From NCBI GenBank assembly GCA_009781765.1, contig WQVC01000022.1:1-34995 (forward strand): a stretch of DNA of 34,995 nucleotides, written 5' to 3'. Each line of letters starts with the position of its first letter. The first letter of the stretch is position 1. This DNA is from Defluviitaleaceae bacterium. Its GTDB lineage: Bacteria > Bacillota > Clostridia > Lachnospirales > WQUN01. The translations under genes were made by a program, and so were the position numbers. Below are positions 2,258 to 34,735 of the stretch, piece by piece. A model generated the notes under the pieces. It saw nothing but the letters and a program-made list of their open reading frames with translations. It was not told the origin of the DNA and did no database searches.

Positions 2258-3280
2258 ATGATAGTATCAATCCGCCCGAACTCGCCGAAGGAAAAAATCA
2301 ACCATCTAATCAAGTGGCTCGACGATAAAAATTTGATTGTGAAGGAATTTCACGGCAACGACCAATGCGTGTTAGGCTTAATCGGCAACACCAAATGCAT
2401 CGACAAGGATATGCTTAAAAGCCTCGACATTGTGGAATCTGTGTCCGACATGACCGACACGTTTAAAGCAAGTAATCGCAAAATGCATCCCGACGACTCA
2501 ATTTTGCGGCTCGCATCCGGCGAAGGTCCGCTGATTGGCGGCGGGCATTTCGCGTTAATCGCCGGGCCGTGTTCGGTGGAAAGCCGCGAGCAGCTTGTAG
2601 GCATCGCGCGGGATGTAAAAGCCGCCGGCGCGAATTTTTTGCGCGGCGGAGCGTTTAAACCGCGCACATCGCCGTATGATTTTCAGGGCATGGGCAGCGC
2701 GGGGCTGGAGCTTCTTCTCGAAGCCCGTGCCGAAACCGGTCTGCCGATAGTCACCGAGCTTATGTACCTGCACAATTTGGACGAATTTATCGAGAAAAAA
2801 ATCGACGTAATACAAATCGGCGCGAGAAACACTCAAAACTACGACCTCTTAAAGGAACTCGGAAAATCCACTCAAGCCCCTGTTTTGTTAAAGCGCGGGC
2901 TTGCCGGCACAATCAAAGAACTGTTGATGAGCGCGGAATATATAATGGCAAACGGGAACGAGAATGTTATTTTGTGCGAGCGCGGAATCCGCACATACGA
3001 GCAGGATTACGCCCGGAACACATTGGATTTATCCGCCGTGCCGATATTAAAAAACCTGACGCATCTGCCGGTAATTGTTGACCCGTCCCACGCAACCGGG
3101 CGGGCAGACCTCGTTCCGTCCATGACACTCGCGGCAATTGCGGCCGGCGCAGACGGAATTTTGGTCGAAGTTCATAACGACCCGAAAAATGCCCTGTGCG
3201 ACGGCGCGCAATCTCTTACACCGGAGGCATTTGCGGAGCTTTCGGCCAAAATTGACCGTCTGCGGGACGCACTCAGATGA
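2258..3280 (+). CDS. aroF: 3-deoxy-D-arabino-heptulosonate 7-phosphate synthase, type I-beta
   Basis: This enzyme condenses phosphoenolpyruvate with erythrose-4-phosphate in the first step of the shikimate pathway (cytoplasm). The 340-residue product has an N-terminal ferredoxin-like regulatory domain (about 1-70) and a TIM barrel with family motifs GPCSVES (103-109), FKPRTSPY (123-130), IQIGARNTQNY (175-185), LLKRG (200-204), CERGIRTYE (230-238) and VDPSHATGR (254-262). Cys105 and His258 are expected metal ligands. The N-terminal layout is like the Thermotoga enzyme, where this domain mediates aromatic amino acid feedback; there is no fused chorismate mutase. The start has a GAGGAG site. Its TGA overlaps the tyrA start by 4 bp (ATGA), which implies translational coupling. 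Confidence 0.95.
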   Translation: MIVSIRPNSPKEKINHLIKWLDDKNLIVKEFHGNDQCVLGLIGNTKCIDKDMLKSLDIVESVSDMTDTFKASNRKMHPDDSILRLASGEGPLIGGGHFALIAGPCSVESREQLVGIARDVKAAGANFLRGGAFKPRTSPYDFQGMGSAGLELLLEARAETGLPIVTELMYLHNLDEFIEKKIDVIQIGARNTQNYDLLKELGKSTQAPVLLKRGLAGTIKELLMSAEYIMANGNENVILCERGIRTYEQDYARNTLDLSAVPILKNLTHLPVIVDPSHATGRADLVPSMTLAAIAAGADGILVEVHNDPKNALCDGAQSLTPEAFAELSAKIDRLRDALR

Positions 3281-4113
3281 AGCGAGTCGGAATTGTCGGA
3301 CTGGGGCTGATTGGCGGCTCGATTGCCAAGGCGTACAAGCGCACGCCGGGAATTACCGTGCTTGGCGCGGACATCGACCGCTCTATCGTGGAGTTTGCAA
3401 AACTCGCCGAAGCTATCGACGGCGAATTGCACGACGCCGATTTATCATCTTGCGACGTCGTGTTTCTTTCGATTTTCCCGCAAGGGGTCATCGACTGGAT
3501 TGACGCGAAAAAAAATTTTTTGGCAGGAACAACCGTTATCGACTGCGCCGGCACAAAAGGGCGAATTTGCGAAAAAATTTTTCCGGTAGCCGAGGCGCAC
3601 AATTTTACTTTTGTCGGCGGGCATCCTATGGCCGGCTTGCATCGAAGCGGCTTCAAATTCAGCCGCGAGGATTTATTCGACGGCGAGCCGATGGTAATTG
3701 TCCCGCCGGCGCACGACGACATTCGCCTTTTTGATAAAATCAAAACGCTCATTGCGCCGCTCGGTTTCGGGCGCATTTCTGTAACAACCGCCGCCGAACA
3801 CGACGAAATTATCGCGTTTGCATCGCAAATGCCGCACATAATCTCAAACGCCTTTGTAAAAAGCCCCGTCGCGCCGCGTCACAGGGGCTATTCGGCGGGG
3901 AGTTATCGCGATTTAAGCCGCGTTGCCCGCCTCGACCCCGACATGTGGACAGAACTTTTTCTCGAAAACAAGGCGTATCTGCTCGACGAATTTGACACCT
4001 TTATCGCATCCCTGCAAAACTATCGCGCCGCACTCGAAAGCGGCGACGCAAAAAAATTGCGCGAGCTTCTGCACGACGGAAGCCGCATAAAACGGGAAAT
4101 CGACGGCCCTTAG
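3277..4113 (+). CDS. tyrA: Prephenate dehydrogenase
   Basis: It oxidatively decarboxylates prephenate to 4-hydroxyphenylpyruvate on the way to tyrosine. The 278-residue product opens with a Rossmann GxGxxG (residues 8-13), followed by a beta-strand ending in acidic residues, which fits NAD(H) preference. Further family motifs are GGHPMAGLHRSG and DLFDGEPMVIVPP, and an MPHIISNAF segment holds the conserved His of the helical domain. It stops soon after the dimerisation domain, so it lacks the C-terminal ACT domain of B. subtilis TyrA and may not be directly tyrosine-inhibited. It overlaps aroF by 4 bp. Its TAG is followed immediately by the first hairpin of a family A repeat array. Confidence 0.92.
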   Translation: MKRVGIVGLGLIGGSIAKAYKRTPGITVLGADIDRSIVEFAKLAEAIDGELHDADLSSCDVVFLSIFPQGVIDWIDAKKNFLAGTTVIDCAGTKGRICEKIFPVAEAHNFTFVGGHPMAGLHRSGFKFSREDLFDGEPMVIVPPAHDDIRLFDKIKTLIAPLGFGRISVTTAAEHDEIIAFASQMPHIISNAFVKSPVAPRHRGYSAGSYRDLSRVARLDPDMWTELFLENKAYLLDEFDTFIASLQNYRAALESGDAKKLRELLHDGSRIKREIDGP

Positions 4114-4378
4114 CGCGCCAAGCGCGCAGTGGACACCGGGGACAAGACGTCAGCGGCGAAGCATACCCTCGAAGCCGGAGGCGAAGCCCCTTTTCACCGG
4201 GGACAAGACGTAGGCGGCGCGGCATTCCCTCGAAGCCGGAGGCGCGCAGCCCCTTTTCACCGGGGACAGGACGTCAGCGGCGAAGCATACCCTCGAAGCC
4301 GGAGGCGAAGCCCCTTTTCACCGGGGACAAGACGTAGGCGGCGCGGCATTCCCTCGAAGCCGGGGGGCGTTTCGCGCC
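4114..4378 (+). repeat. Family A repeat array, four units, downstream of tyrA
   Basis: The array begins at the tyrA stop with a GCGCGCCAAGCGCGC hairpin, then four units starting at 4134, 4195, 4258 and 4319 (61, 63, 61 and about 60 bp). Each has CACCGGGGACA, a variable middle, and CCCTCGAAGCCGG. Units 1 and 3 differ at one base and units 2 and 4 are almost identical, so the array is a 124-bp dimer duplicated in tandem. Unit lengths are not multiples of three and I see no coding function; an open frame across it has low complexity and no ribosome-binding site. Confidence 0.9.
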
Positions 4379-4389
4379 TTGGCGACAAG

Positions 4390-4550
4390 CGTTAATGCGA
4401 ATCCACAGTTCAAAATAACAGCCCGCCGAAAATGTATTGTGGCGAGCGACCGGTCTTTTTTTCGGATGTTTTTCCCAAAAAAAAGACATCGAGCGAGCCA
4501 TTCACAATGCATCGGCGGGCTGTTATTTCAACAATGGATTCGCATCGTTA
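4390..4550. mobile_element. MITE-like element with terminal inverted repeats and target duplication
   Basis: A 151-bp body (4395-4545) is bounded by perfect 11-bp inverted repeats, ATGCGAATCCA at 4395-4405 and its reverse complement at 4535-4545. It is flanked on both sides by the direct repeat CGTTA (4390-4394 and 4546-4550), as expected for a 5-bp target duplication. The arms continue inward with a perfect 17-bp inverted repeat (4413-4429 with 4512-4528) and an A/T-run pairing (4453-4462 with 4477-4487), so the whole element can fold into one long imperfect hairpin. It encodes no protein. The structure is that of a miniature inverted-repeat transposable element moved by a transposase encoded elsewhere. 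A structured RNA is the alternative. Confidence 0.8.
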
Positions 4551-4623
4551 CATACAGCGAACACCTTCACGGGCTTCTCAAGTGCGTTCGCGATAATTTA
4601 TGAATACAGAGGAAGTGGTTTGC

Positions 4624-5721
4624 GTGAAAACCATAACAGCAGGCTTTCCGTGGTCGTCGGCCGATAACTGCGAAATTTTTATCGAACGCGGTTTGCTCGC
4701 GCATTTTACGCAAATTGCTGAATTTCGCAAAAAATTTTCCGGCGTAAAAAAATTCGCGATTATAACGGACGAAAACGTGTGCCGACTTTATGCGGAGCGC
4801 GTCGCAAACTCGCTTAATGAAGCGGGCTTCGACGTTGTAATACCCTACTTCACCCCCGGCGAGCAGTCCAAAAATATCGACACATTTTTTATGTTGCAAA
4901 ACCAACTTGCCGAAAACGAAATTACCCGCTCCGACGCAATTATCGCTCTCGGCGGCGGCGTGGTCGTCGATTTGGCGGGTTTTGTTGCGGCTACATATCT
5001 GCGGGGCATTCCGTTTGTGCAAATGCCAACAACTCTTCTCGCGATGGTTGACTCGTCGGTGGGCGGAAAAACCGCCATCGACATTCCCGCCGGCAAGAAT
5101 CTCGTCGGCGCGTTTCATCAGCCCGCAATGGTTGTTTGCGACCCCGACACTCTCGGAACTCTCCCCGCCGAAAACTTCGCCGACGGCATGGCGGAAGTCA
5201 TCAAGCACGCCATGATTGAGTGCCGGAGGCCGGAAGCGCGTACCACCTCGGCGTTATTGCATATGCTCAACAGCGAAATTCCGATTTCCGAAAATTCCGG
5301 CATCCTTGCGGACGTCATCGAGGCGAACGTAAAAATCAAGCGCGACATCGTGCAGCGCGACGAGTTCGACACCGGCGAGCGTCAACTTTTAAATTTCGGG
5401 CATACTATCGGTCACGCTGTCGAAAAATTAAGCAGTTTTAAAATTTCGCACGGAAGTGCCGTTGCAATCGGCATGAGCATCATTACAAAATCCGCCGTGC
5501 AAAAAGGTCAATGCGCGCCGGAATGCGCGGAAATTTTGGAAAATCTGCTGCAAAAATATAATCTGCCGACGCACACGGATTTTTCGCCGCAAGAAATTTT
5601 CGAGGCGTCTCTTTCCGACAAAAAACGCACCGGCGGATTTATAATCGAGGTAATTCCGCGTTCGCCGGGCGTGTGCGAACTTGTTAAAATGCCGGTCGGG
5701 GACTTGCTTGATTGGATATAA
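4624..5721 (+). CDS. aroB: 3-dehydroquinate synthase
   Basis: It converts DAHP to 3-dehydroquinate using NAD and a divalent metal. I place the start at GTG 4624 (365 residues) because GAGGAA lies about 10 nt upstream; an in-frame ATG at 4600 has no ribosome-binding site and would add 8 residues. Motifs seen: TPGEQSK (77-83), the NAD-binding GGGVVVDLAG (110-119), PTTLLAMVDSSVGGKTAID (135-153), and likely metal ligands Glu191, His250 (in NFGHTIGH) and His266. Length is normal. It is separated from tyrA by the repeat array and MITE-like element, which may have split a once continuous operon. aroA follows after 19 bp. Confidence 0.93.
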   Translation: MKTITAGFPWSSADNCEIFIERGLLAHFTQIAEFRKKFSGVKKFAIITDENVCRLYAERVANSLNEAGFDVVIPYFTPGEQSKNIDTFFMLQNQLAENEITRSDAIIALGGGVVVDLAGFVAATYLRGIPFVQMPTTLLAMVDSSVGGKTAIDIPAGKNLVGAFHQPAMVVCDPDTLGTLPAENFADGMAEVIKHAMIECRRPEARTTSALLHMLNSEIPISENSGILADVIEANVKIKRDIVQRDEFDTGERQLLNFGHTIGHAVEKLSSFKISHGSAVAIGMSIITKSAVQKGQCAPECAEILENLLQKYNLPTHTDFSPQEIFEASLSDKKRTGGFIIEVIPRSPGVCELVKMPVGDLLDWI

Positions 5722-5740: not shown

Positions 5741-7243
5741 GTGACGATAACCGTTTTGCCCGCTCAAATCAGCGGCACAATTGCCGCAATTCCTTCAAAA
5801 AGCCATTTGCACCGCTTACTTATTTACGCGGCACTTTCCGACGCGCCGACGACGATTACCTGTCGCGACACAAAAGCCGAGGACATTACCGCAACAATTG
5901 ATTGCCTTTCCGCGCTCGGGGCGGAAATTTGCAGAAACGAAACCGGCTTTGCGGTTCGTCCCGCTGACCGGAGCAAATTATCCGGCGACGCGACAACGCC
6001 GCTTTTTTTTCCGTGCGGCGAAAGCGGCTCGACGCTTCGATTTATGTTGCCCGTTGTAAATGCGTTGGGGCTTCGCGGCGCGTTTGAAATGAAGGGGCGT
6101 TTGCCGGAACGGCCGCTCGCGCCTCTCGACGCGCAGCTCAAAGCGCACGGCGTAAAACTTTGGCGCGAAGGCAATATTCTGCACTGCGAAGGGCAGCTCA
6201 CGCACGGCACATTCACCCTGCCCGGCGATGTTTCTTCGCAATATATTTCGGGGCTGTTGATGGCGTTGCCGCTTCTCGAAAAACCGAGCCGCTTGGAAAT
6301 CACCGGATTCGTCGAATCCGCCGGATACATCGACCTCACATTACAGGTCGCCGAAACCTTTACAGCCGGGGACATATCCGGAATGCCGCACGTTCCCTCG
6401 AAGCCGAACGCCGGGGACACATCCGGAATGCCGCACGTTCCCTCGAAGCCGAACGCCGGGGACACATCCGGAATGCCGCACATACCCTCGAAGCCGGAGT
6501 GTGCTTCCGAAGGGGCATGTAATCTGTCCCCCACCCTCTCGAAGCCGAATGCCGGAAACACATCCGGAATGCCGCACGTTCCCTCGAAGCAGGAATCATC
6601 GCCGGATTCCGCAACCGGATGGGCGTGTGATATCCAACCTGCGGGAGCGTATAAAAGTCCGGGGCGCACGGCGGCCGAAGGCGATTGGTCGAACGCCGCG
6701 TTTTGGCTTTGCGCCGGCGCGATGCCCGGCGGAAGTATTCGCATGACCGGGCTTAACAAAAACAGCTCGCAGGGCGACCGCGAAATTTGCGAAATTTTAA
6801 GCCGCACAGGCGCAAACGTGACGTGGGACGGCGACGACGTTGTTGTATCCGCCGGAAAACTTAACGCCACCGAAATCGACGGTCGTGCCGTGCCGGATTT
6901 GATTCCGGTTTTAGCGGCGGTTGCCTCCGTCGCGCGGGGTACAACCGTTATTCGAAACGCATCTCGCCTTCGAATAAAAGAATCCGACCGTCTCGCAACA
7001 ACCGCGCAAACAATTAACGCACTCGGCGGCAATGTTTCGGAAACATCCGACGGGCTGATCATCACCGGAACGCAACAATTACGCGGCGGCACGGTTGACG
7101 CAGCCGGCGACCATCGCATCGCAATGACGGCGGCAGTCGCGCACACCGCCGCACCGGTAACCGTAACCGGTGCGCAAGCCGTAAACAAGTCCTATCCGGA
7201 TTTTTGGAACGACTTGCGTTCGTTGGGAAGAAAGGCCGATTAA
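5741..7243 (+). CDS. aroA: EPSP synthase with in-frame repeat insertion
   Basis: It transfers the enolpyruvyl group of PEP to shikimate-3-phosphate. The start is GTG 5741 with GGAGG at 5726-5730, giving 500 residues against a usual length near 430. Conserved residues are present: Lys20 (PSKSHLHR), GESGSTLR (93-100), Arg124, the SSQ at 165-167, EGDWSNAAF (313-321), Asp386, Glu414/Arg417 (RIKESDR) and DHR (457-459). Residues about 209-290 do not belong to the family: they are four translated copies of the family A repeat (core SGMPHVPSKP), placed between the D-L-T-L helix and the strand leading to EGDWSNAAF, near the crossover to the second domain. The frame is intact and all catalytic residues remain, so I infer a working enzyme with a Pro/Ser/Gly-rich surface loop. 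Confidence 0.92.
   Translation: MTITVLPAQISGTIAAIPSKSHLHRLLIYAALSDAPTTITCRDTKAEDITATIDCLSALGAEICRNETGFAVRPADRSKLSGDATTPLFFPCGESGSTLRFMLPVVNALGLRGAFEMKGRLPERPLAPLDAQLKAHGVKLWREGNILHCEGQLTHGTFTLPGDVSSQYISGLLMALPLLEKPSRLEITGFVESAGYIDLTLQVAETFTAGDISGMPHVPSKPNAGDTSGMPHVPSKPNAGDTSGMPHIPSKPECASEGACNLSPTLSKPNAGNTSGMPHVPSKQESSPDSATGWACDIQPAGAYKSPGRTAAEGDWSNAAFWLCAGAMPGGSIRMTGLNKNSSQGDREICEILSRTGANVTWDGDDVVVSAGKLNATEIDGRAVPDLIPVLAAVASVARGTTVIRNASRLRIKESDRLATTAQTINALGGNVSETSDGLIITGTQQLRGGTVDAAGDHRIAMTAAVAHTAAPVTVTGAQAVNKSYPDFWNDLRSLGRKAD
6365..6596 (+). repeat. Family A repeats inside the aroA reading frame
   Basis: Four units start at 6365, 6410, 6455 and 6551. Spacing is 45, 45 and 96 bp, all multiples of three. 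Units 1 and 2 differ at one base. The third carries an extra 51 bp that includes a second, partial core (CCCTCTCGAAGCCG). The frame reads G-D-T-S-G-M-P-H-V-P-S-K-P. The DNA matches the intergenic family A copies, with GCCGGGGACA at one end and CCCTCGAAGCCG at the other. Confidence 0.92.
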
Positions 7244-7300
7244 AGTTTTTGTCCCGCTTTTTTCAAAAAGCGGGTGGGGTTCGGGGCGACTCCCCGAAAA
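7243..7300 (+). repeat. Family B two-hairpin repeat between aroA and aroC
   Basis: It begins at the aroA stop. Hairpin 1 is CCCGCTTTTT (7253-7262) with AAAAAGCGGG (7265-7274); hairpin 2 is TTCGGGG (7280-7286) with CCCCGAA (7292-7298). There is no terminal T run, so it is not an obvious terminator. The same two-hairpin design recurs at 11386, 30158 (reversed) and 30251. It ends just before the aroC ribosome-binding site. Confidence 0.75.
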
Positions 7301-7315
7301 TCAGGAGGTGAAACA

Positions 7316-10041: not shown

Positions 10042-11292
10042 ATGCTCCGCAAGTTGAAAATTTTTGCAGTTTTATTTTTTTGCGTAATTTCCGGCTACAC
10101 AATCGGGAGTTTTGCGCATCTTTTTCGTTTTCCCGGCGAACTGCGCCTCACGGAATATTCAACATATAACGTAAATATCGGCGGGCGGTCGCGCACGATT
10201 CAAACGGGAAGCCGTGGCACAGATGAAATGGTAATCGAGGCGTTCGGCGTGCCGCTGCGACGCATCACTCTCGACGTCGTGCCGGAAGTTGAAATCGTCC
10301 CGCTCGGAGTTGCAATCGGCGTGCGCATAAATACCGACGGCGTTATGGTTTTGGGAACGCAGTCGTTTCGCGGCGAATGCGGCGAAATGTTCCGCCCCGC
10401 GCATGACGTTCTGCTCGGCGGCGACTTAATTTTGCGCGCCAACGGCATCGAAATCAACAACAAAGAAGACCTCACACGCTTCATCGAAACAAGCGACGGC
10501 GAAATTATTTTTTCCGTTCGGCGCGGCGAAGAACGGCTCGAAGTTGCCGTAACTCCCGGCATTGCCGAAAAAGACGGCGTTCGGCGAATCGGCGTTTGGG
10601 TGCGCGATTCCACAAAAGGAATCGGTACGCTCACATTTTTTAATCCGGAAACCGGCGCGTTCGGCGCACTCGGTCACGGAATTTTGGACGTTGACACAAA
10701 AACGCTGCTTACCGTTCGAAGCGGGCGAATCATGCCGTCAACGGTAACGTCGGTAACGCGCGGCGTTCGCGGCGTACCCGGCGAGCTCGAAGGCTCGGTG
10801 GACACCTCCGCCACGCTCGGCACAATTTACACAAATTGCACAACCGGCATTTTTGGCGAACTCGAACCCGAAACCCTCGCCCGCTATGCCGACCTCCCCC
10901 GCTTCCCCATCGCCGGCCGCGCGCAAATACAAGAAGGCCCCGCAACAATTTTAACAAACGTGTCCGGAGCCGACGTGAAATCATACGAAATCGAAATCGA
11001 AAACGTTCACATGAACCCTTCCGACGAAACAAAAGGCATCGTAATTCGCATAACCGACCCCGAGCTTTTGCGCCAAACCGGCGGCATAGTTCAGGGCATG
11101 AGCGGCAGCCCGATTTTGCAAAACGGGCGAATTATCGGCGCAATCACCCACGTTTTCGTACAAGACCCCACTCGCGGCTACGGAATTTTTATCGAGAATA
11201 TGGTCGGCGTGGATTATCATAACCAAGTTCTCGGGGGCTCCGTTCTCGGAGGCGTTGCCCCCGAACCCCCTTGCCCGCCAAGCGGGCAGTGA
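10042..11292 (+). CDS. spoIVB: SpoIVB sporulation serine peptidase (S55)
   Basis: In spore formers this forespore peptidase is secreted into the intermembrane space and triggers pro-sigma-K processing by SpoIVF. The 416-residue product has one N-terminal membrane anchor (5-25), a PDZ domain (about 100-165) and an S55 domain. Candidate catalytic residues are His212 (GALGHGILD), Asp339 (RITDP) and Ser354 (GMSGSP); their spacings (142 and 15) equal those of the B. subtilis triad as I recall it (His236, Asp363, Ser378). The GYGIFIENM block near the C-terminus is typical. The last 20 or so residues (L-G-G-S onward, Gly/Pro-rich) are encoded by hairpin repeat DNA, and the stop lies within a family A element. 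Confidence 0.93.
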   Translation: MLRKLKIFAVLFFCVISGYTIGSFAHLFRFPGELRLTEYSTYNVNIGGRSRTIQTGSRGTDEMVIEAFGVPLRRITLDVVPEVEIVPLGVAIGVRINTDGVMVLGTQSFRGECGEMFRPAHDVLLGGDLILRANGIEINNKEDLTRFIETSDGEIIFSVRRGEERLEVAVTPGIAEKDGVRRIGVWVRDSTKGIGTLTFFNPETGAFGALGHGILDVDTKTLLTVRSGRIMPSTVTSVTRGVRGVPGELEGSVDTSATLGTIYTNCTTGIFGELEPETLARYADLPRFPIAGRAQIQEGPATILTNVSGADVKSYEIEIENVHMNPSDETKGIVIRITDPELLRQTGGIVQGMSGSPILQNGRIIGAITHVFVQDPTRGYGIFIENMVGVDYHNQVLGGSVLGGVAPEPPCPPSGQ

Positions 11293-11353
11293 ACGCCGGG
11301 AACACATGTAATTTTCTACACATTCCCTCGAAGCCGGAACAGCTTCCTGTGCA
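11231..11353 (+). repeat. Repeat DNA forming the spoIVB 3' end, with a family A copy
   Basis: A hairpin TCGGGGGC (11231-11238) with GCCCCCGA (11257-11264) is followed by the family A leading hairpin GCCCGCCAAGCGGGC (11273-11287), the spoIVB TGA at 11290-11292, GCCGGGAACACAT, and the core CCCTCGAAGCCGG ending near 11337. The trailing CTTCCTGTGCA is shared with the copy inside comF. Confidence 0.85.
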
Positions 11354-11355
11354 TC

Positions 11356-11382
11356 AAAAAACCGCGCTTCGCGCGGTTTTTT
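11356..11382. terminator. Bidirectional terminator between spoIVB and the chemoreceptor gene
   Basis: A GC stem (ACCGCGC 11361-11367, loop TTC, GCGCGGT 11371-11377) is flanked by an A run on the left and eight T on the right. It can terminate both convergent transcripts. Confidence 0.88.
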
Positions 11383-11385
11383 TTG

Positions 11386-11452
11386 TTAAAGTTTTGATGA
11401 AACTTTTTCAAAAGTTTCCGGGGTGTGGGGCAGAGCCCCGAGGTCTTGGTAA
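11386..11452 (+). repeat. Family B two-hairpin repeat
   Basis: Hairpin 1 is GAAACTTTT (11399-11407) with AAAAGTTTC (11410-11418). Hairpin 2 is GGGG (11427-11430) with CCCC (11436-11439). It is nearly the reverse complement of the copy at 30158-30218. It lies just after the terminator and ends at the stop of the minus-strand chemoreceptor. Confidence 0.8.
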
Positions 11453-17785: not shown

Positions 17786-17829
17786 TTCAAAACCTATCGG
17801 TAGCCGGTTGGTTACCGATAGGTTTTGAA
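17786..17829. repeat. Perfect 17-bp inverted repeat in a divergent intergenic region
   Basis: Arms at 17786-17802 and 17813-17829 are perfect reverse complements (one arm reads TTCAAAACCTATCGGTA) around a 10-nt loop. There is no T run on either side, so it is not an intrinsic terminator. It sits between yabP (minus) and the zinc-ribbon gene (plus), 12 nt before the TTGACA of the candidate promoter, so it could be an operator or a structured 5' RNA of the minus transcript. Confidence 0.75.
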
Positions 17830-17953: not shown

Positions 17954-19078
17954 ATGTCAACAAAATCGTCACAGGTCAGCACCCTCAGACTGCAATTTTA
18001 TCAAATGGGAACGCCTCAAAAAAGGCAATTTATCGAACGGCTTCGTCCGCAGGTTATCAGTACAAGAAACGCCGAATACAAGGCGTTGCTGGATGAATGC
18101 GTTCGAGCATATAACGCCGAAGTCGCGCAGGCGAATGCGTCGCCCCCGAAACCGGCGTCTTCCGCTGCAAGACCTCAGCCGCGTGTTTCGCAACTGCGCG
18201 CGGGGCAAAATCGCATTTTTTGTTCCGGTTGCGGCGTGCAGCTTGAAAGAACCGCGCGTTTTTGTTCGTCGTGCGGATTTCAGGCGAACGCGGCAGTCGC
18301 AAACGAAGACCCTCGATACCCGTCGTATACATACCATGACGTCGGCGATGCTTCATTTATCGGCTTGTTCCGTAAACATTTTTCGGGCGGATTGTATTTA
18401 ACCGCGATAGTGCTTGTTACAGCCGGCATGATACTCGGCAACCTGATGTCGGGGGTTTTCGGCTTGTTAGTGCTTTTGCCCGCTGTTCCGGCGTTAATTT
18501 CCTATTGGATTATGTTTTCCGCCGCAAAATCTCCGGATACTCAAACAAAAGCTCCCGGAGCTTTAACAGTATTTCAAGTGTATTACATCATTGAATTTGT
18601 GATTGTATGCCTGCTCGGGCTTGCGCTTGCTTTTTTGGCTGTGTTGACTTTGGCCGGCGGAGCAGTTTTGGGTGAACTGGGATTAAATGCGGGAGGATTT
18701 GCATTAGGGGGCGTCGCGATTGTTTTGTTGGTTTTCGCCGGCGGCTTGATTGCATTTTTTGCCGTGCAGCTCCGGGCTGCGTTGCAGGTTATTGCATCTT
18801 TGAAAAAAGGACTTGCGACAAATTTGAAAACTCCCTTGCACGGCGTAACCACTTACGCGGTAATGGGCTATATAGCTTACGGCATTATAATTTTGAGCTC
18901 TTTAGCGGGAGTCCTCGCGACAGACGCCGCAATGAGCATGATGCCTGCCCCTTTAGGTTCTCCCGTAAGCAGCGCGGTGTTATTGCTAAGCACTGTTTTA
19001 AGCCTTACTTCGGCGGTTGGAGGAATTTTGTTCCGGACGGTTTTTCTCATCCTTAATAATGCGTTAAAAATTCCGTGA
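17954..19078 (+). CDS. Zinc-ribbon multi-pass membrane protein, paralogue of 1245-2198
   Basis: I choose ATG 17954 because GGAG (17941-17944) lies 9 nt upstream; two earlier in-frame ATGs are too close. The product is 374 residues: a Gln/Arg-rich N-terminal helix region (1-60), a Pro/Ala linker, a zinc ribbon (Cys90, 93, 104, 107; C-x2-C and C-x2-C), then about six membrane helices from residue 133. The membrane part follows the same pattern as the 1245-2198 protein, including a basic loop before the fifth helix (ASLKKGL against NAIKHRV). Function unknown. Its stop overlaps the comF GTG (GTGA), so the two are coupled. Confidence 0.75.
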   Translation: MSTKSSQVSTLRLQFYQMGTPQKRQFIERLRPQVISTRNAEYKALLDECVRAYNAEVAQANASPPKPASSAARPQPRVSQLRAGQNRIFCSGCGVQLERTARFCSSCGFQANAAVANEDPRYPSYTYHDVGDASFIGLFRKHFSGGLYLTAIVLVTAGMILGNLMSGVFGLLVLLPAVPALISYWIMFSAAKSPDTQTKAPGALTVFQVYYIIEFVIVCLLGLALAFLAVLTLAGGAVLGELGLNAGGFALGGVAIVLLVFAGGLIAFFAVQLRAALQVIASLKKGLATNLKTPLHGVTTYAVMGYIAYGIIILSSLAGVLATDAAMSMMPAPLGSPVSSAVLLLSTVLSLTSAVGGILFRTVFLILNNALKIP

Positions 19079-19917
19079 TTTCCACGCTTTCTCATCTGAT
19101 TGACTGGATTTATCCGCCCGCATGTGTTGCATGTCGGGTGCTTTTGCCGCTGAACGAATCGCGGCGATTTTTTTGCGCGCGATGCGAAGGGCTTTTCGAT
19201 GCAATTTCCGAGCCGATTTGCGGGCGTTGCGGTGCACCGAGCACCGGAGACATACGCAGCTTACCGCACATTCTCTCGAAGCCGGATGCGGCTTCCTGTG
19301 CAACACAATATAATTCTTCGTACAACCCGGGCGTCGAGCCGGAAAACAACTTTGCAACCGATACCCTCCCCTCCCCCGCCGCCTGTCCGTCGTGCGCCGG
19401 AAAAACTTTCTTGTTTGAAAAAAATTTTGCTTCATTTATATACGACGATTTACTTCGCGAGCTTTTGCACGAAATAAAATTTCGCGATAACAAGCGGGTT
19501 GCGGCGGCATTGGGGCATATTTGGGCGGCGAACTGCTTAAATTTTCCCGAAAATATTTCCGAGTACACGCTTGTTCCTATGCCCATGCATCCGAAAAAAC
19601 AGCGCGAACGCGGGTTTAATCAGGCGGATTTATTGGCCGCGCCTCTTGCCGCCGCGTTAAAAATTCCCGTGTCGAAAGTTTTGCGCCGAACAGTTGATAC
19701 GCCTCCGCAATCGGAAATTCATCCGTCGCAACGAGCGGAAAATGTGCGCGGTGTTTTTGAGGTTTGCAAAAAATTTCAAACAAACGAAAAAAAATTTATT
19801 TTGGCGGATGACATTTTTACCACCGGCGCAAGCCTGAACGAATGCGTGCGAGTTCTGATAAAATCAGGCGCGAAGCAAGTTTTATGTATGACTTTGGCAA
19901 TTTCGGTAAAAAACTAA
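19075..19917 (+). CDS. comFC: ComF-family phosphoribosyltransferase-like protein with repeat insertion
   Basis: ComFC is linked to natural transformation and has a zinc finger plus a phosphoribosyltransferase fold. Start GTG 19075 overlaps the upstream stop; no good ribosome-binding site, so coupling is assumed. Of 280 residues, eight Cys form four pairs (17/20, 34/37, 49/52, 104/107), followed by FIYDDLLRELLHEIKF, PMPMHPKKQRERGFNQ and the PRPP-binding loop ILADDIFTTGAS (about 232-243). Residues about 57-101 between CGRCGAP and CPSC are unusually long for the family and begin with a translated family A repeat (GDIRSLPHILSKP). The gene precedes flgM, as in B. subtilis. Confidence 0.88.
   Translation: MISTLSHLIDWIYPPACVACRVLLPLNESRRFFCARCEGLFDAISEPICGRCGAPSTGDIRSLPHILSKPDAASCATQYNSSYNPGVEPENNFATDTLPSPAACPSCAGKTFLFEKNFASFIYDDLLRELLHEIKFRDNKRVAAALGHIWAANCLNFPENISEYTLVPMPMHPKKQRERGFNQADLLAAPLAAALKIPVSKVLRRTVDTPPQSEIHPSQRAENVRGVFEVCKKFQTNEKKFILADDIFTTGASLNECVRVLIKSGAKQVLCMTLAISVKN
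19241..19302 (+). repeat. Family A copy inside the comF reading frame
   Basis: GCACCGGAGACATACG, then CCGCACATTCTCTCGAAGCCGG, split here as CCGCACATT and CTCTCGAAGCCGG, and then CTTCCTGTGCA, a tail shared with the copy after spoIVB. It is read in the same frame as in aroA (P-H-I-L-S-K-P against P-H-V-P-S-K-P). Confidence 0.85.
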
Positions 19918-25887: not shown

Positions 25888-27408
25888 ATGCGCGTTACAA
25901 ATCATATGATTTTCGGAAATTCCATGAACAATATTTGGCGCAATGCGCGTCATTTGAACAATCTTGTTACGCAAATCGAAACGGGCAAAAAAATTCAACG
26001 CCCCTCCGACGACCCGCTTATTGCCGCACGCGCGTTGCGTTACCGCACAATTTTGTCGGAAACGGAGCAGTTTTTGCGCAATTCACAGCAGGGCATGGCG
26101 TGGATGGAAGTATCGGAAGCCGCGTTCAACAGCATCCTGACGGGCAGCGCAACAACACCGTCGCTTATGCAGCGCATTTATACGCGCTTGGTTGAAGGTG
26201 CGCAAACCGGCACACAAACCCTTGACGAACATCGCGCAATTGTTGCGGAGCTTCGCCAATATTTTGACCAGATGTTCGGCGTTGACATGAATCAAACTTA
26301 TTTGGGCAGATACGTTTTTTCCGGCTTCCACACCGACCAGTCGCCGGTTTTAAAAGAAGATTGGCCCGGCCGCAGTTTTATCATCACGCAGGATTTCGAT
26401 GCCGGTGTAATTGAACGCGCAAAAGCGTTTCATCGCGAAACGCCCACGAGTATGCCCGAGGATATTTGGGCGAATATCATTAAATTACCCTTCACAAATG
26501 CAAATTTTGATTTCGACACCGCAGGAATTACCGGCAACCCGCCGCAAATCGGCATTGTTTTGGCGGACGGCACGGAGCTTTTCGTTTACACCACGGATTC
26601 CACCGCAGAAAATGCGTATCGTCCGGATGACGCCGGCGGAACGCCGCCGCTTCCGATGATTCATCACTTGCGCGACACGGGCGAGCTGATTGTAAGCGAC
26701 GCGGTTCGCGATTTGATTATCGGCGCGGGCGGGCTTCGCGTGGTTTATGAAAAAAGCGATATTCGTGCGGGCGAATTGAACCCGATTGTTTACTTTGAGT
26801 CGGCGGAAATTATTTCAACAACCGACGACACTGGTGCTGTTTCGCAAAATGCCGTGCATTTCAGCACACGCGGGCAAAATATCCAACTGGAAATTTCGCC
26901 GATGGCGTACATCACAATAAATACCCACGCTCGTGACGCCCTTACGGCGGATTTGTTCGCGGATTTGCGACGTCTTTTCGACTTTGCGGATTCACTCATT
27001 GCCTCCGACCCGGCCGTGATTCGCGAATATTTCGCTGCGCCGCCGCACAATAAGACCGGCGATGATTTAGACAACGCGGTTGCGCGATTCCTGTCGGACG
27101 AAAACGCTGCTTTTTCCGGCGCAATGCACATTCGCTTCGACAATATGCTTGAGTCGATTCAGGCGCATAAGGCAGCGGCGCAACGCCAACATTCGCAGCT
27201 CGGCGCGAGAATGTCGCGGCTTGAAATGATTCAAATTCGCTTGGATGAAGACGAAGTTGCCTACACCGACCTCATGTCCGATAACGAAGATGTTGACATG
27301 GCCGCCACAATTATGCGCAAATCCGGCGCGGAAGCGGCGTTCAGCCACGCGCTCAGGTCGATTGCAATGACAACGCAACTTTCTCTTGCGGATTTCATAA
27401 ACCGTTAG
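25888..27408 (+). CDS. flgL: Flagellar hook-associated protein 3 (FlgL), first copy
   Basis: FlgL is the second junction protein, directly below the filament. The 506-residue product has the N-terminal D0/D1 motif QIETGKKIQRPSDDPLIAAR (residues about 29-48) and the C-terminal LGARMSRLEMIQIRLDEDEV helix. Typical FlgL is near 300 residues, so about 200 residues of variable domain are added in the middle (about 150-400). An AGGAGGT site precedes the ATG, 11 bp after flgK. A family A array follows its stop. Confidence 0.9.
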   Translation: MRVTNHMIFGNSMNNIWRNARHLNNLVTQIETGKKIQRPSDDPLIAARALRYRTILSETEQFLRNSQQGMAWMEVSEAAFNSILTGSATTPSLMQRIYTRLVEGAQTGTQTLDEHRAIVAELRQYFDQMFGVDMNQTYLGRYVFSGFHTDQSPVLKEDWPGRSFIITQDFDAGVIERAKAFHRETPTSMPEDIWANIIKLPFTNANFDFDTAGITGNPPQIGIVLADGTELFVYTTDSTAENAYRPDDAGGTPPLPMIHHLRDTGELIVSDAVRDLIIGAGGLRVVYEKSDIRAGELNPIVYFESAEIISTTDDTGAVSQNAVHFSTRGQNIQLEISPMAYITINTHARDALTADLFADLRRLFDFADSLIASDPAVIREYFAAPPHNKTGDDLDNAVARFLSDENAAFSGAMHIRFDNMLESIQAHKAAAQRQHSQLGARMSRLEMIQIRLDEDEVAYTDLMSDNEDVDMAATIMRKSGAEAAFSHALRSIAMTTQLSLADFINR

Positions 27409-27600
27409 TCCGCCCGGCGGACTTCGGACGCCGGGGGCATATGTCGCGGACGACACGTTCCCTCGAAGCCGGTGCGCCAAGCGCACTTCAGACGCCGAGA
27501 ACATATATCGAAGGCGGCGCGTTCCCTCGAAGCCGGTGCGCCAAGCGCACTTCGGACGCCGGGAACATATATCAGAGGCGGCGCGTTCTCTCGAAGCCGG
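27409..27600 (+). repeat. Family A array of three 64-bp units between the two flgL genes
   Basis: Three units of exactly 64 bp start at 27409, 27473 and 27537. Unit 1 opens with a GTCCGCCCGGCGGAC hairpin at the flgL1 stop; units 2 and 3 open with TGCGCCAAGCGCA. Each then has GCCGGGAACATAT (or close variant) and the core CCCTCGAAGCCGG. The remaining 52 bp to flgL2 hold only its ribosome-binding site. Confidence 0.92.
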
Positions 27601-30157: not shown

Positions 30158-30218
30158 AAGACCTCGGGGCTCCGCCCCGAGCCCCGGAAACTTTTGAAAA
30201 AGTTTCATCAAAACTTTA
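30158..30218 (-). repeat. Family B two-hairpin repeat, reversed
   Basis: Near-identical to the reverse complement of the copy at 11386-11452, including GATGAAACTTTTTCAAAAG and the GGGGC...GCCCC hairpin. It lies between the csrA stop and the terminator. Confidence 0.8.
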
Positions 30219-30220
30219 TT

Positions 30221-30249
30221 AAAAATCGCGCTTTCGCGCGATTTTTTTT
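30221..30249 (+). terminator. Intrinsic terminator of the flagellar block
   Basis: An A run and ATCGCGC (30225-30231) pair with GCGCGAT (30236-30242) and a run of T residues. It is flanked by family B copies in opposite orientation. Confidence 0.88.
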
Positions 30250-30250
30250 G

Positions 30251-30306
30251 TTTTTGTCGAACTTTTTTTAAAAAGTTCGTGGGGTTCGGGGCGAAGCCCC
30301 GAAAAA
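30251..30306 (+). repeat. Family B two-hairpin repeat
   Basis: Hairpin 1 CGAACTTTTT with AAAAAGTTCG; hairpin 2 TTCGGGGC with GCCCCGAA. Closest in sequence to the copy after aroA (both share GTGGGGTTCGGGGCGA). Confidence 0.8.
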
Positions 30307-30319
30307 CATTATCCTGAGG

Positions 30320-30348: not shown

Positions 30349-30369
30349 CAACACACAGTAAAATAATTT

Positions 30370-30540
30370 CGCGAGGGGTGCTGCGCAACCGATTTTATAT
30401 CGGCGCGGCTGAGAAATACCCTTTGAACCTGCTCCGGGTAATTCCGGCGAAGGGATGCGTGCGCGGCTTTGTCGCCAAACATCGGGATGAATTGTGTAAT
30501 CCCTTCGAAGTTTTTCGTCCTCGCGGATAATCCGGGAGGT
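30370..30540 (+). promoter_or_regulatory. TPP riboswitch with expression platform
   Basis: Aptamer about 30370-30458 carries the THI-box landmarks in order: GGGGTGC (30375-30381), a short variable stem (CCGAT/ATCGG), GGCTGAGAAATACCC (from 30407), TTTGAACCTG, then GGGTAATTCC and GCGAAGGGA. Downstream, ATCCCTTCG (30499-30507) is a perfect 9-bp complement of CGAAGGGAT (30448-30456), the 3' side of the aptamer, so binding of TPP and this pairing exclude each other. The RBS GGGAGG (30534-30539) lies just beyond. High TPP should lower ThiT production. Confidence 0.93.
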
Positions 30541-30546
30541 TTTTTT

Positions 30547-31431
30547 ATGCAACAAAAAGGACAAATGTCACATGCAAAAATGCTTGCGGTTGGTGCTGTT
30601 TGTATCGCGCTTGCGTTTATGTTGAATCAGGTCGCGATTTTTCGAATGCCCATGGGCGGCTCGGTTACGCCGATGAGTATGCTGTTCATCGTGCTTGCGG
30701 GGTATTGGCTCGGGCCGGCGTTCGGCATTTTGGCGGGGGTGTCGTTGGGACTTTTAGACACAATTACCGGCGCGTTTATTGTGCATCCGGCGCAATATGT
30801 GCTTGATTACATTTTGGGATTCGGTGCGCTCGGGATTTCCGGCTTCTTTCGGCGGATGAAATTCGGGCTGCAAATAGGGTATATCGCGGGCGTTTTCGGA
30901 CGTTGGGTTATGGTTTTTTTGTCGGGATTGTTGTTTTTTTACATGTACGCGCCGGAGGGTCAACACGCGGCGATTTATTCTGCCGTATATAATTTGAATT
31001 ATATCGCGCCGGAAATGATTGTTACGCTGATTATCATCAGCTTGCCGTCGATGAAACACGCCATTAACATTGTTACGAAAAGTATTGTGCCGCCGGCGGT
31101 TTACGAGCAGATGCTCGCGGTTAATGCGGGTTCGGTTTCCGCGGCGGCGCGAATTGCAACAGGCGCGGTACTCGGCACGTTGGGCGGCATGGCGTTTGTT
31201 TTTGCGGGGCATCTTCGGAGGCTTGAGGAGCTGACCGTGATGCAGGTTGCGTTCGATGTGCAGGCGTTTTCGGACCCGATTCGTGCTGACAGAGTGTATC
31301 GTTTGGTTGAGCGCAACTCCGAGCAAATTTTTGCATTTCAAACTGCCGGCGTTATTTTTCTCGCCCTTGCCGCCGCGCTTATGATTTCAACGCTTTGCGC
31401 CGAGCGGGAGAAAGCGCGGGAAGAAGCGTGA
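30547..31431 (+). CDS. thiT: ThiT-type thiamine transporter S component with C-terminal extension
   Basis: ThiT is the substrate-binding membrane subunit of an energy-coupling factor (ECF) transporter for thiamine. The start at 30547 has GGGAGG 7 nt upstream and follows the riboswitch; 294 residues. Residues 1-175 match the ThiT core: GAVCIALAFMLNQVAIFRMP, then GGSVTPMSMLFIVLAGYWLG, AGVSLGLL and HPAQYVLDYILGFG. Family members usually end near 180-200; here about 115 more residues follow, with two further helices (about 191-211 and 251-274) around a soluble, charged segment. The ECF ATPases and EcfT are not in the window. Control by TPP fits the role. Confidence 0.9.
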   Translation: MQQKGQMSHAKMLAVGAVCIALAFMLNQVAIFRMPMGGSVTPMSMLFIVLAGYWLGPAFGILAGVSLGLLDTITGAFIVHPAQYVLDYILGFGALGISGFFRRMKFGLQIGYIAGVFGRWVMVFLSGLLFFYMYAPEGQHAAIYSAVYNLNYIAPEMIVTLIIISLPSMKHAINIVTKSIVPPAVYEQMLAVNAGSVSAAARIATGAVLGTLGGMAFVFAGHLRRLEELTVMQVAFDVQAFSDPIRADRVYRLVERNSEQIFAFQTAGVIFLALAAALMISTLCAEREKAREEA

Positions 31432-31478: not shown

Positions 31479-32279
31479 ATGCGAGCGGTAATCATATCCG
31501 GCGGCGTGATTTCGGATTATGCATACATTCGGTCGCAAATTCGTGCCGACGATACGATTATCTGCGCCGACAGCGGATTCGACCACGCCGTGAAAATGGG
31601 GGTTGTGCCGGCGGCGATTACGGGCGATTTCGACTCCGTTCGCGCAAAACTTCCGCCGGAAATCGAGTGCGTAAAATTTCCCGCGCGAAAAAATCAAACC
31701 GACACCGAAATCGCCGTCGAATATGCGCGGCAGCGCGGATTTGCGGACTTTCTTCTGCTCGGCGCGACGGGCGGGCGGCTCGACCACGCGCTTACGAATA
31801 TCTTGCTGCTGAAAAAGTTCGCCGAGCGCGGTGAAGATGCCGAAATTATTGACGAGTACAGCAAAATTACGATTATTTCGGCGGACGTCATTGAGAATCC
31901 CGCTCAGGCGGAAAATGCGTTGAAGGGTGCGGGCGAAGTACGTCCGCCACTGCCTGCGATTTTCCGCCTCGCCTTCTCGGTTCTCAAGGTCGTTCGCGAT
32001 ACCCGTATCTTTCGGCGCGTTTTCCGACGACGCTCGCGCGGTGTTACGTTGGCGATTTACGAGCCGCCGGGTACGATTGTATCCCTTGTGCCGCTTGAAC
32101 ACTGCACCGGCGTGACTGCGGACGGGTTTGAATATCCGCTGCATGATGCGGATTTGCATGTCGGCGAAGGGCTGGGGGTAAGCAATGTGGTGCGCAGGGA
32201 CGTCACCGACGTGCCGACCGTCGGACTCACGCGCGGGGTGCTGTTGGTGATTGTTGCGCGGGACGTCACCACACCTTGA
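31479..32279 (+). CDS. Thiamine pyrophosphokinase with internal insertion
   Basis: It makes TPP from thiamine and ATP. I choose ATG 31479 (GGGGGG upstream); a GTG at 31428 overlapping the thiT stop is possible. The 266-residue product has DSG (31-33), GDFDS (49-53), QTDTE (73-77), GGRLDH (98-103), VSLVPL (201-206) and GVSN (about 233-236). The family is usually about 210-220 residues. The surplus lies at about 137-188, between the EYSKITII strand and G-V-T-L-A-I-Y, is Arg-rich, and its DNA carries an inverted repeat. Catalytic motifs lie outside it, so I expect activity. In the same unit as thiT, so also under the riboswitch. Confidence 0.9.
   Translation: MRAVIISGGVISDYAYIRSQIRADDTIICADSGFDHAVKMGVVPAAITGDFDSVRAKLPPEIECVKFPARKNQTDTEIAVEYARQRGFADFLLLGATGGRLDHALTNILLLKKFAERGEDAEIIDEYSKITIISADVIENPAQAENALKGAGEVRPPLPAIFRLAFSVLKVVRDTRIFRRVFRRRSRGVTLAIYEPPGTIVSLVPLEHCTGVTADGFEYPLHDADLHVGEGLGVSNVVRRDVTDVPTVGLTRGVLLVIVARDVTTP
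31885..31993. repeat. Inverted repeat inside the thiamine pyrophosphokinase gene
   Basis: Outer arms TTGAGAA (31891-31897) and TTCTCAA (31981-31987) are perfect complements, and pairing extends outward with two mismatches to 31885 and 31993. Inner arms AGGCGGAAAAT (31906-31916) and ATTTTCCGCCT (31959-31969) are also perfect. It coincides with the extra protein segment. It shares no core with families A or B. Confidence 0.65.
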
Positions 32280-33564: not shown

Positions 33565-34610
33565 CTTATCACGAAAATTTAAATGCGCAAAATACGCTGA
33601 GATTGCGGGAGCTTTTAAAAACGCTTCCGCAATTTGCGGCGGGATATTTTCGCAGTGTCAGCGAACAAACGGCGTCACTTACGCGCCTTGCATACGCTTA
33701 CGACCTGCGACTTTTTTTTACGTTTTTGTCGGAGGAAGTGCTTTACGTTCCGCCCGCCGAAATATCTGTTGAGCAGATGCAGAAAATCGACGACACGCAT
33801 ATCGAGGAATTTATGGAATATTTGACATACTACGTGCCGATTTCGGATTCCGAATCGGACGAAAAGCCGGTGCAAAACGCTGTTGCGGGCAAATCGCGCA
33901 AATTAGCGGCGGTGCGACGGCTTTTCAAGTATTTGTACAAGCGCAAGTACATATCGGCGAATCCGGCGGAGCTTGTGGATTTTCCGCGTCTGAAAGAGCA
34001 GCCGATTACCACGCTTGAAGCCGATGAAGTCGCGCGGCTTCTCGACGAGGTTGACAGCGGCGAAAATTTAACAAAGCATCAAAAGGCGTTTCATGCGCGA
34101 ACCCGCCTGCGCGATGCGGCAATCATCACGTTATTGCTCGGAACGGGAATGCGGGTTTCGGAATGCGTGGGCATCGACCTGAGCGACATCGACTTCGAGG
34201 TGAACGGCTTGCGGGTTGTGCGCAAGGGCGGCGACGCGATGATTTTATATTTCGGCGACGAAGTACGCGATGCACTTTGCGCGTGGCTCGACCGCCGCGA
34301 GGAAATCGAGCCGCTTCCCGGGCATGAAAACGCGCTGTTTATTTCGCTGCATTCCAAAAGAATAACCACTCGCGCCGTGCAAAAGTTGGTAAAAAAATAC
34401 GCCGCGTTGATAACAAAGTTAAAAAATATTTCGCCGCACAAATTACGCAGCACCTTCGGAACGCGCCTCTACAGCGAAACCGGCGACATTTATCTTGTGG
34501 CAAACGTTCTCGGACACAGTGACATAAACACAACGCGCAAGCATTATGCAAAAATGGATGACGCCCACCGACGCAAAGCGGCGAATATTGTAAAATTGCG
34601 CGATTCTTGA
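33561..34610 (+). CDS. Tyrosine recombinase (XerC/XerD-like)
   Basis: Start GTG 33561 overlaps the upstream stop (GTGA) and has GGAAGAAG a few nt upstream; 349 residues. The N-terminal SAM-like core-binding domain spans about 20-130. The catalytic set is complete: Arg188 (GTGMRVSE), Lys212 (VVRKGG), His293 and Arg296 (HKLRSTFGTRLY), His319 (VLGHSDINTTRKHY) and the nucleophile Tyr329. No phage genes, att repeats or dif site were seen nearby. It may be a chromosome-dimer recombinase or another host recombinase; XerC and XerD cannot be told apart from the sequence alone. Placed in a two-gene unit with the TraB-like protein. Confidence 0.92.
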   Translation: MTYHENLNAQNTLRLRELLKTLPQFAAGYFRSVSEQTASLTRLAYAYDLRLFFTFLSEEVLYVPPAEISVEQMQKIDDTHIEEFMEYLTYYVPISDSESDEKPVQNAVAGKSRKLAAVRRLFKYLYKRKYISANPAELVDFPRLKEQPITTLEADEVARLLDEVDSGENLTKHQKAFHARTRLRDAAIITLLLGTGMRVSECVGIDLSDIDFEVNGLRVVRKGGDAMILYFGDEVRDALCAWLDRREEIEPLPGHENALFISLHSKRITTRAVQKLVKKYAALITKLKNISPHKLRSTFGTRLYSETGDIYLVANVLGHSDINTTRKHYAKMDDAHRRKAANIVKLRDS

Positions 34611-34613
34611 AAC

Positions 34614-34735
34614 TCCGGGGGACACATGCAATTTGCCGCACGTTCCCTCGAAGCCGGAGCAGCAGAGCAATTTGCGTTGTCCGAAAACGAGGAGGGGAAT
34701 GGGGGCATCAGCCCGGTTCCCTCCGAAGTTTGAGG
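34614..34735 (+). repeat. Family A copy and a degenerate second copy after the recombinase gene
   Basis: CTCCGGGGGACACATGC through TTCCCTCGAAGCCGG (34614-34657) is a clear copy beginning 3 nt after the stop. A degenerate copy follows near 34690-34735 (GGGGGCATCAG, then GTTCCCTCCGAAG). Confidence 0.75.

Follow-up and report, generated by a model that had tools for sequence, protein, structure and literature searches.

The comF gene of a Defluviitaleaceae bacterium is interrupted, in its own reading frame, by a copy of a short palindromic repeat that is dispersed over the genome and lies both between and within genes. It is probable, at roughly 0.83 in our estimate, that this repeat is a non-autonomous palindromic mobile element whose intragenic copies have passed a filter of purifying selection, and that the frame common to the comF and aroA copies is a coincidence within that filter. 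The window analyzed, i.e. the whole stretch of DNA under study, comprises 34,995 nucleotides of contig WQVC01000022.1. Its source genome (2.94 Mb, 94% complete) is designated G000 below, and two sister species that bear the element are designated G002 and G009.

The comF copy and other copies in the window

An earlier note on this DNA had described a copy of a dispersed repeat at 19241–19302, interrupting comF between the third and fourth Cys pairs of its product. Our analysis confirmed this: the 20 bases at the heart of the element, GCACATTCTCTCGAAGCCGG, occupy 19266–19285, the recognizable core starts at about 19243 and the tail stops at 19302, and among the Cys pairs of ComF (CVAC, CARC, CGRC and CPSC, in that order) the insert follows CGRC and precedes CPSC. 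The copy, which is 68% identical over 57 nt to the reference copy of family D1, is translated in the comF frame as S-T-G-D-I-R-S-L-P-H-I-L-S-K-P-D, and this frame (PHxxSKP) is identical to that of the five copies in aroA, as had been claimed. The host gene was identified as comF by a match to NCBIfam TIGR00201 (6.9e-27, below the curated cut-off), and it also matched GntX (NF008616, 2.3e-27). The features concerned, all on the forward strand, are as follows.

4114–4363, + strand: four-copy array immediately after a gene that ends with TAG at 4113
5741–7243, + strand: aroA host gene (TIGR01356, 3.3e-88)
about 6364–6594, + strand: five element copies in aroA, spaced 45–51 nt, in the comF frame
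11273–11353, + strand: full-length copy at the 3′ end of spoIVB (5′ hairpin 11273–11287, core to 11337, tail to 11353)
19075–19917, + strand: comF host gene, open through the insert, identified by NCBIfam matches and orthologues
19243–19286, + strand: element core within comF, sense frame 2, TGDIRSLPHILSKPD; present in no ComF orthologue aligned
19287–19302, + strand: element 3′ tail in comF, TGCGGCTTCCTGTGCA, which can pair with GAAGCCG of the core
19303–19368, + strand: extra non-repeat part of the comF insert, defined by length relative to comF of G002 and G009
27408–27600, + strand: three-copy array with a 64-nt period, whose start coincides with the stop codon of a gene that ends at 27408
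34614–34657, + strand: single copy, 3′ of a gene that ends at 34610

Alignment of ComF orthologues, which the earlier note had proposed as a check, revealed repeat-free alleles: the insert was absent from all 28 orthologues from relatives that span the site (29 were aligned, one of which was too short), and the opposite outcome, a segment conserved in species lacking the repeat, was not observed. The closest orthologues were those of G009 and G002 (73–74% identity over the downstream part), two species that hold the element elsewhere in the genome and have an empty comF. Relative to comF of G002 the insert is about 41 codons longer, including some 66 extra bases (about 19303–19368) downstream of the repeat, for which no other significant match was found in the sampled half of G000. 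The insertion site itself is a segment of variable length across the orthologues.

The comF tail had also been reported to recur in the copy after spoIVB. Indeed, the window holds exactly two occurrences of CTTCCTGTGCA, at 11343–11353 and at 19292–19302, and none was found in 100 shuffles. This sequence represents the usual 3′ tail of the element family, for which the intergenic consensus is TTTCCTGTGCAATAAAAAA, and the exact 11-mer was present in 4 of 200 sampled copies. It was also noticed that the spoIVB copy is not wholly non-coding, as its 5′ arm and hairpin are in the spoIVB frame and its TGA (11290–11292) is the spoIVB stop codon.

Several other repeats were observed in the window. A second dispersed repeat, at 7245–7303 and 30250–30308 (83% identity over 59 nt), has the form GTTTTTGTC-hairpin-GTGGGGTTCGGGGCG, and stretches resembling it occur near other element copies in the genome. 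A 68-nt inverted repeat (11380–11447 versus 30158–30225) is 91% complementary with its halves separated by 18.7 kb, and a hairpin formed by TTCAAAACCTATCGGTAGCC and GGTTACCGATAGGTTTTGAA at 17786–17829 is the same terminator-like palindrome that is found 3′ of many element copies genome-wide. A search of Rfam at gathering score gave no structured-RNA match to the element; the only match in the window was a TPP riboswitch (30364–30472, RF00059, 66.5 bits) upstream of a membrane-protein ORF (30580–31431) and a further ORF (31479–32279), which we take to encode, plausibly, a thiamine transporter and a thiamine pyrophosphokinase, respectively.

Anatomy and taxonomic range of the element

The element has a core of 44 bp within a unit of up to 90 bp, consisting of a 5′ hairpin, an imperfect central stem in which GGGGA pairs with TTCCC, and a 3′ stem, the 3′ part being able to pair with GAAGCCG. 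In G002 the unit is mostly 90 bp. Compensatory changes were found in the 5′ hairpin (GTGCGC/GCGCAC, GCGCGC/GCGCGC, GCCCGC/GCGGGC and GCGCGT/ACGCGC), the pairs of which exceeded all 200 shuffles when covariation was scored over copies without regard to their kinship. The proposed structure rests on this covariation across copies, because folding of single copies was not clearly above shuffles. The ends of the 90-bp unit do not pair with each other, and no terminal inverted repeats were seen in it.

Many copies in G000 start at the upstream gene's stop codon and finish in an A-run ahead of a terminator. Intergenic copies there lie mostly just 3′ of a gene in the sense orientation; few of them (6 of 95) separate divergent genes. 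Tandem arrays have variable periods of 45–105 nt. Some copies in G000 (C100:2658, C15:25739) lie within a larger inverted repeat, GGGGAGAACCTTTT...AAAAGGTTCTCCCC in type, so that the element is contained in another MITE-like family.

In G000, 241 sites were within 2 mismatches of the 20-base core, compared with 1 for the reversed-pattern control. With the 90-nt unit as query, many copies were detected in G002 and G009, one marginal match each in G003 and G005, and no match in the five remaining members of the genus. In 60 relatives screened with the core pattern, all matches fell inside the genus. When 84,980 species genomes were scanned with it, the matches listed were from the Defluviitaleaceae bacterium MAGs Nt197P1bin19 and Co191P1bin81, plus two single matches in Acidobacteria and none in Rickettsia; records close to the window may be missing from this listing. 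These searches indicate that the element is restricted to one genus of Defluviitaleaceae MAGs, in three related species of which it appears to have multiplied. The bearers probably originate from the termite gut, judging from the isolate names and from a study of termite-gut MAGs (PMC7024585) in which the family Defluviitaleaceae is reportedly mentioned. All carriers are draft and probably metagenome-assembled genomes, in which repeats could be misassembled in places. The sole match among viral contigs, L315 (IMG/VR UViG_2820630457_000005), is the same copy as that at C29:5503 of G000, which suggests that this contig, listed as viral, probably stems from G000 or a nearly identical genome. Our search of the literature found no description of the core sequence, nor of cases from Clostridia or the termite gut.

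Reading frames and in-frame insertion

For a survey of frame and strand, 1077 genes were predicted with a simple codon model in 1.44 Mb of stretches from G000, and 200 copies were classified; the small contigs in the sample were partly picked for listed copies, so that densities are not genome-wide, while frame counts should be little affected. The result revealed that 113 copies are intergenic, 80 lie inside 42 genes and 7 are at gene edges, in agreement with the earlier view that the element occupies coding and non-coding sites alike. When a gene was counted only once for any given frame, sense-0 (AHSLEAG) was used in 19 genes, sense-1 in 2, sense-2 (PHIPSKP, the frame of comF and aroA) in 12, and the antisense frames in 4, 4 and 5 (13 together). 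In 773 kb of G002, a sample taken partly around copies, the counts were 15, 5 and 11 for sense-0, sense-1 and sense-2, respectively, and 3 for antisense.

The earlier note had reasoned that the common frame of comF and aroA might mean that the other frames are not tolerated. This does not hold, as all six frames are used in G000 and five of six in G002, and the frame in question ranks second in frequency. Given the G000 counts, the probability that two genes share a frame is about 0.27, and the coincidence between comF and aroA therefore requires no explanation. The survey that had been proposed to distinguish a single frame from random frames supported neither: use of the frames is mixed, with a strong sense bias and, in G000, an over-representation of sense-0. 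The distribution departs from a stop-weighted six-frame expectation in both species (p <1e-5), chiefly by strand. Within the sense frames, the G002 counts fit the fraction of stop-free donor copies (full units; p 0.59–0.71); in G000, genes with sense-0 exceed the corresponding prediction (p about 1e-4), perhaps because the intergenic copies have mostly turned into a variant, GTGATTTG, with a TGA in that frame. Replication strand was considered as the source of the orientation bias and rejected, since the sense orientation tracks gene strand in genes on both GC-skew strands.

To follow the frame across the insertion sites, the proteins of one species were compared with the DNA of the other, in both directions and independently of gene prediction in the target. 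Wherever a copy separated the two parts of an orthologous protein, it was in frame and the insert had no stop; the single stop met (L212) lies beyond the insert and seems to be the end of the gene itself. Orthologous sites, filled in one species and empty in another, were found for ComF, DHFR, UvrC (two sites), an XylB-like kinase, PyrK, Dxr, a PepP-like protein, ABC-F and others, and the reciprocal sites, filled in G002 and empty in G000, also had in-frame, stop-free inserts. The species with the empty sites is about 60–85% identical in the compared proteins. In addition, the spacing within arrays was a multiple of three in 51 of 52 cases in genes versus 55 of 101 between genes (p=1.7e-9). 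The kept frame, the lack of stops and the multiple-of-three spacing together argue that the insert is translated rather than skipped or spliced. In one clean pair (L301 of G002 versus C72 of G000), five 90-bp units lie between GTA and AAAAAGCGGC, and the empty gene reads GTG AAA AAA AGC GGC. AAAAAGC is present at both ends in this pair, the sole clean one showing it, and no clear target-site duplication was established.

According to NCBIfam, the host genes include aroA, ileS, an Lsa-like ABC-F gene, dxr, uvrC, purH, recG, recJ, a TIGR03960 radical SAM gene, a metH-like gene, dihydrofolate reductase, a PcrA-like helicase, mnmA, spoVB, pyrK and gatA, several of which hold arrays of three to five units. 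Some of these matches fall below the curated cut-offs, possibly due to splitting of the domains by the inserts. In L303 of a sister species, the reading frame of the gene at 2950–4921 also continues through a terminator-like palindrome (AAAAAAGAGTCGGCGAGTG...CTCGCCGACTCTTTTTT) that lies between element copies.

Proposed origin, alternatives and related systems

According to the reading that we favour, the element would have multiplied in the three related species of one genus without a mobilizer of its own, inserting at the 3′ ends of genes and inside genes, as single copies or tandem arrays. An insert within a gene would persist only if its length is a multiple of three, its frame is stop-free and the site tolerates the added residues, so that the pattern of frames would be made by selection rather than by targeting. 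It would then be translated as a linker within an otherwise ordinary enzyme, and the repeat residues would be retained in the mature protein. The movement of the DNA itself, the expression of the inserts and their effect on the enzymes are inferred. Among the four enzyme families sought, no dedicated transposase was found: Y1_Tnp (Y1/RAYT) was not detected in G000 (94% complete), RVT_1 and TnpB were detected in neither G000 nor G002, and IS110 was represented by one protein in G000 and none in G002. It is conceivable, if rather unlikely, that the element has further adapted to coding life, its sense preference and open frames allowing entry into genes, or expansion there, without lethal effect on the host. 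The complete unit is exactly 30 codons, and the core of intergenic G002 copies is open in 5.81 of 6 frames versus 4.74 in shuffles, the copies not being independent.

Selection for a peptide encoded by the element (PHxPSKP), or tolerance of one frame only, is the alternative implied by the earlier note, and the shared frame of comF and aroA, together with the departure of G000 frame use from a stop-only expectation, would be in keeping with it. When differences of the core from the consensus were compared between coding copies and intergenic copies read in the same frame, sense-0 and sense-2 copies of G000 had slightly fewer non-synonymous changes (p 0.025 and 0.013, uncorrected and with tandem copies counted as independent). 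However, no such signal was present in G002, where coding substitutions were no more synonymous than intergenic ones (p 0.47 and 1.0), the AHSLEAG frame is commoner, frame use extends to the six and five frames noted above, and the host proteins are functionally unrelated. Nothing solid favours a preferred peptide, and we regard this explanation as very improbable. An equally slight chance is given to loss of the insert at the RNA or ribosome level by self-splicing, excision or translational bypass, which would leave the protein unchanged. Bypass hairpins are known from yeast mitochondria, and the element is palindromic, can form hairpins and resides in core genes where added residues might harm; however, neither the in-frame, stop-free state of all sites checked nor the multiple-of-three spacing would be needed if the insert were skipped.

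A somewhat less improbable alternative, though still an unlikely one, is that the copies do not move as units, and that local slippage, recombination between copies and gene conversion at hairpins have produced them after an old founder had spread. Tandem arrays with periods of 45–105 nt and the lack of a mobilizer among the families tested are consistent with it, but the copies are dispersed over unrelated sites, and the orthologous sites are empty in a species as close as that compared above. Compatible with the mobile-element reading, and tentatively possible, is that A-rich targets on the sense strand (AAAAAGC, GAA codons) set the bias in frame and strand. The empty sites inspected are rich in A or GAA on their sense strand, the unit starts with AAAAAGC, and the sense bias follows the gene strand, not the GC-skew strand. 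However, these were only about nine sites, judged by eye without statistics, and hydrophilic loops are A/GAA-rich anyway.

The Rickettsia palindromic elements (RPE) and their Wolbachia counterparts are similar in being palindromes that lie between genes and in frame in conserved protein genes, and no transposase has been identified for either RPE or the present element. Nineteen ORFs with RPE inserts have been described, as well as an active guanylate kinase bearing one (Delihas 2007, PMC2229807). The element differs from RPE in its Defluviitaleaceae host, in its unit of 45–90 bp versus 105–146 bp, in that no terminal inverted repeats were seen, which in RPE are about 12 bp long, in the frequent in-gene tandem arrays with multiple-of-three spacing, and in its larger number of host genes (42 in half a genome). 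REPs are short palindromes that lie mostly 3′ of genes, with some inside genes including those for DNA repair (PMC3733652). The element resembles GTAG/CGTC REP elements in this distribution, but neither the GTAG nor the CGTC tag is present in its 90-nt unit, and the search of G000 for a Y1/RAYT gene was negative. Like bacterial MITEs (Correia/NEMIS, ERIC, RUP), some of which are read in frame within genes (PMC2229807), it is a small repeat without its own transposase gene; unlike them, terminal inverted repeats and target duplication were not established and no parent insertion sequence was identified. The element most likely works like RPE and intragenic REPs, without having all the defining features of either.

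These results explain the odd extra segments seen in proteins predicted for this genus; otherwise such segments would be taken as functional insertions. Sister species with filled and empty sites provide material for studying the ways in which proteins accommodate inserted segments. The best-known examples of palindromic repeats lying in frame within conserved enzymes come from Rickettsia and Wolbachia, both obligate intracellular bacteria, and a dense case in an unrelated lineage shows that such insertion is not limited to a single group.
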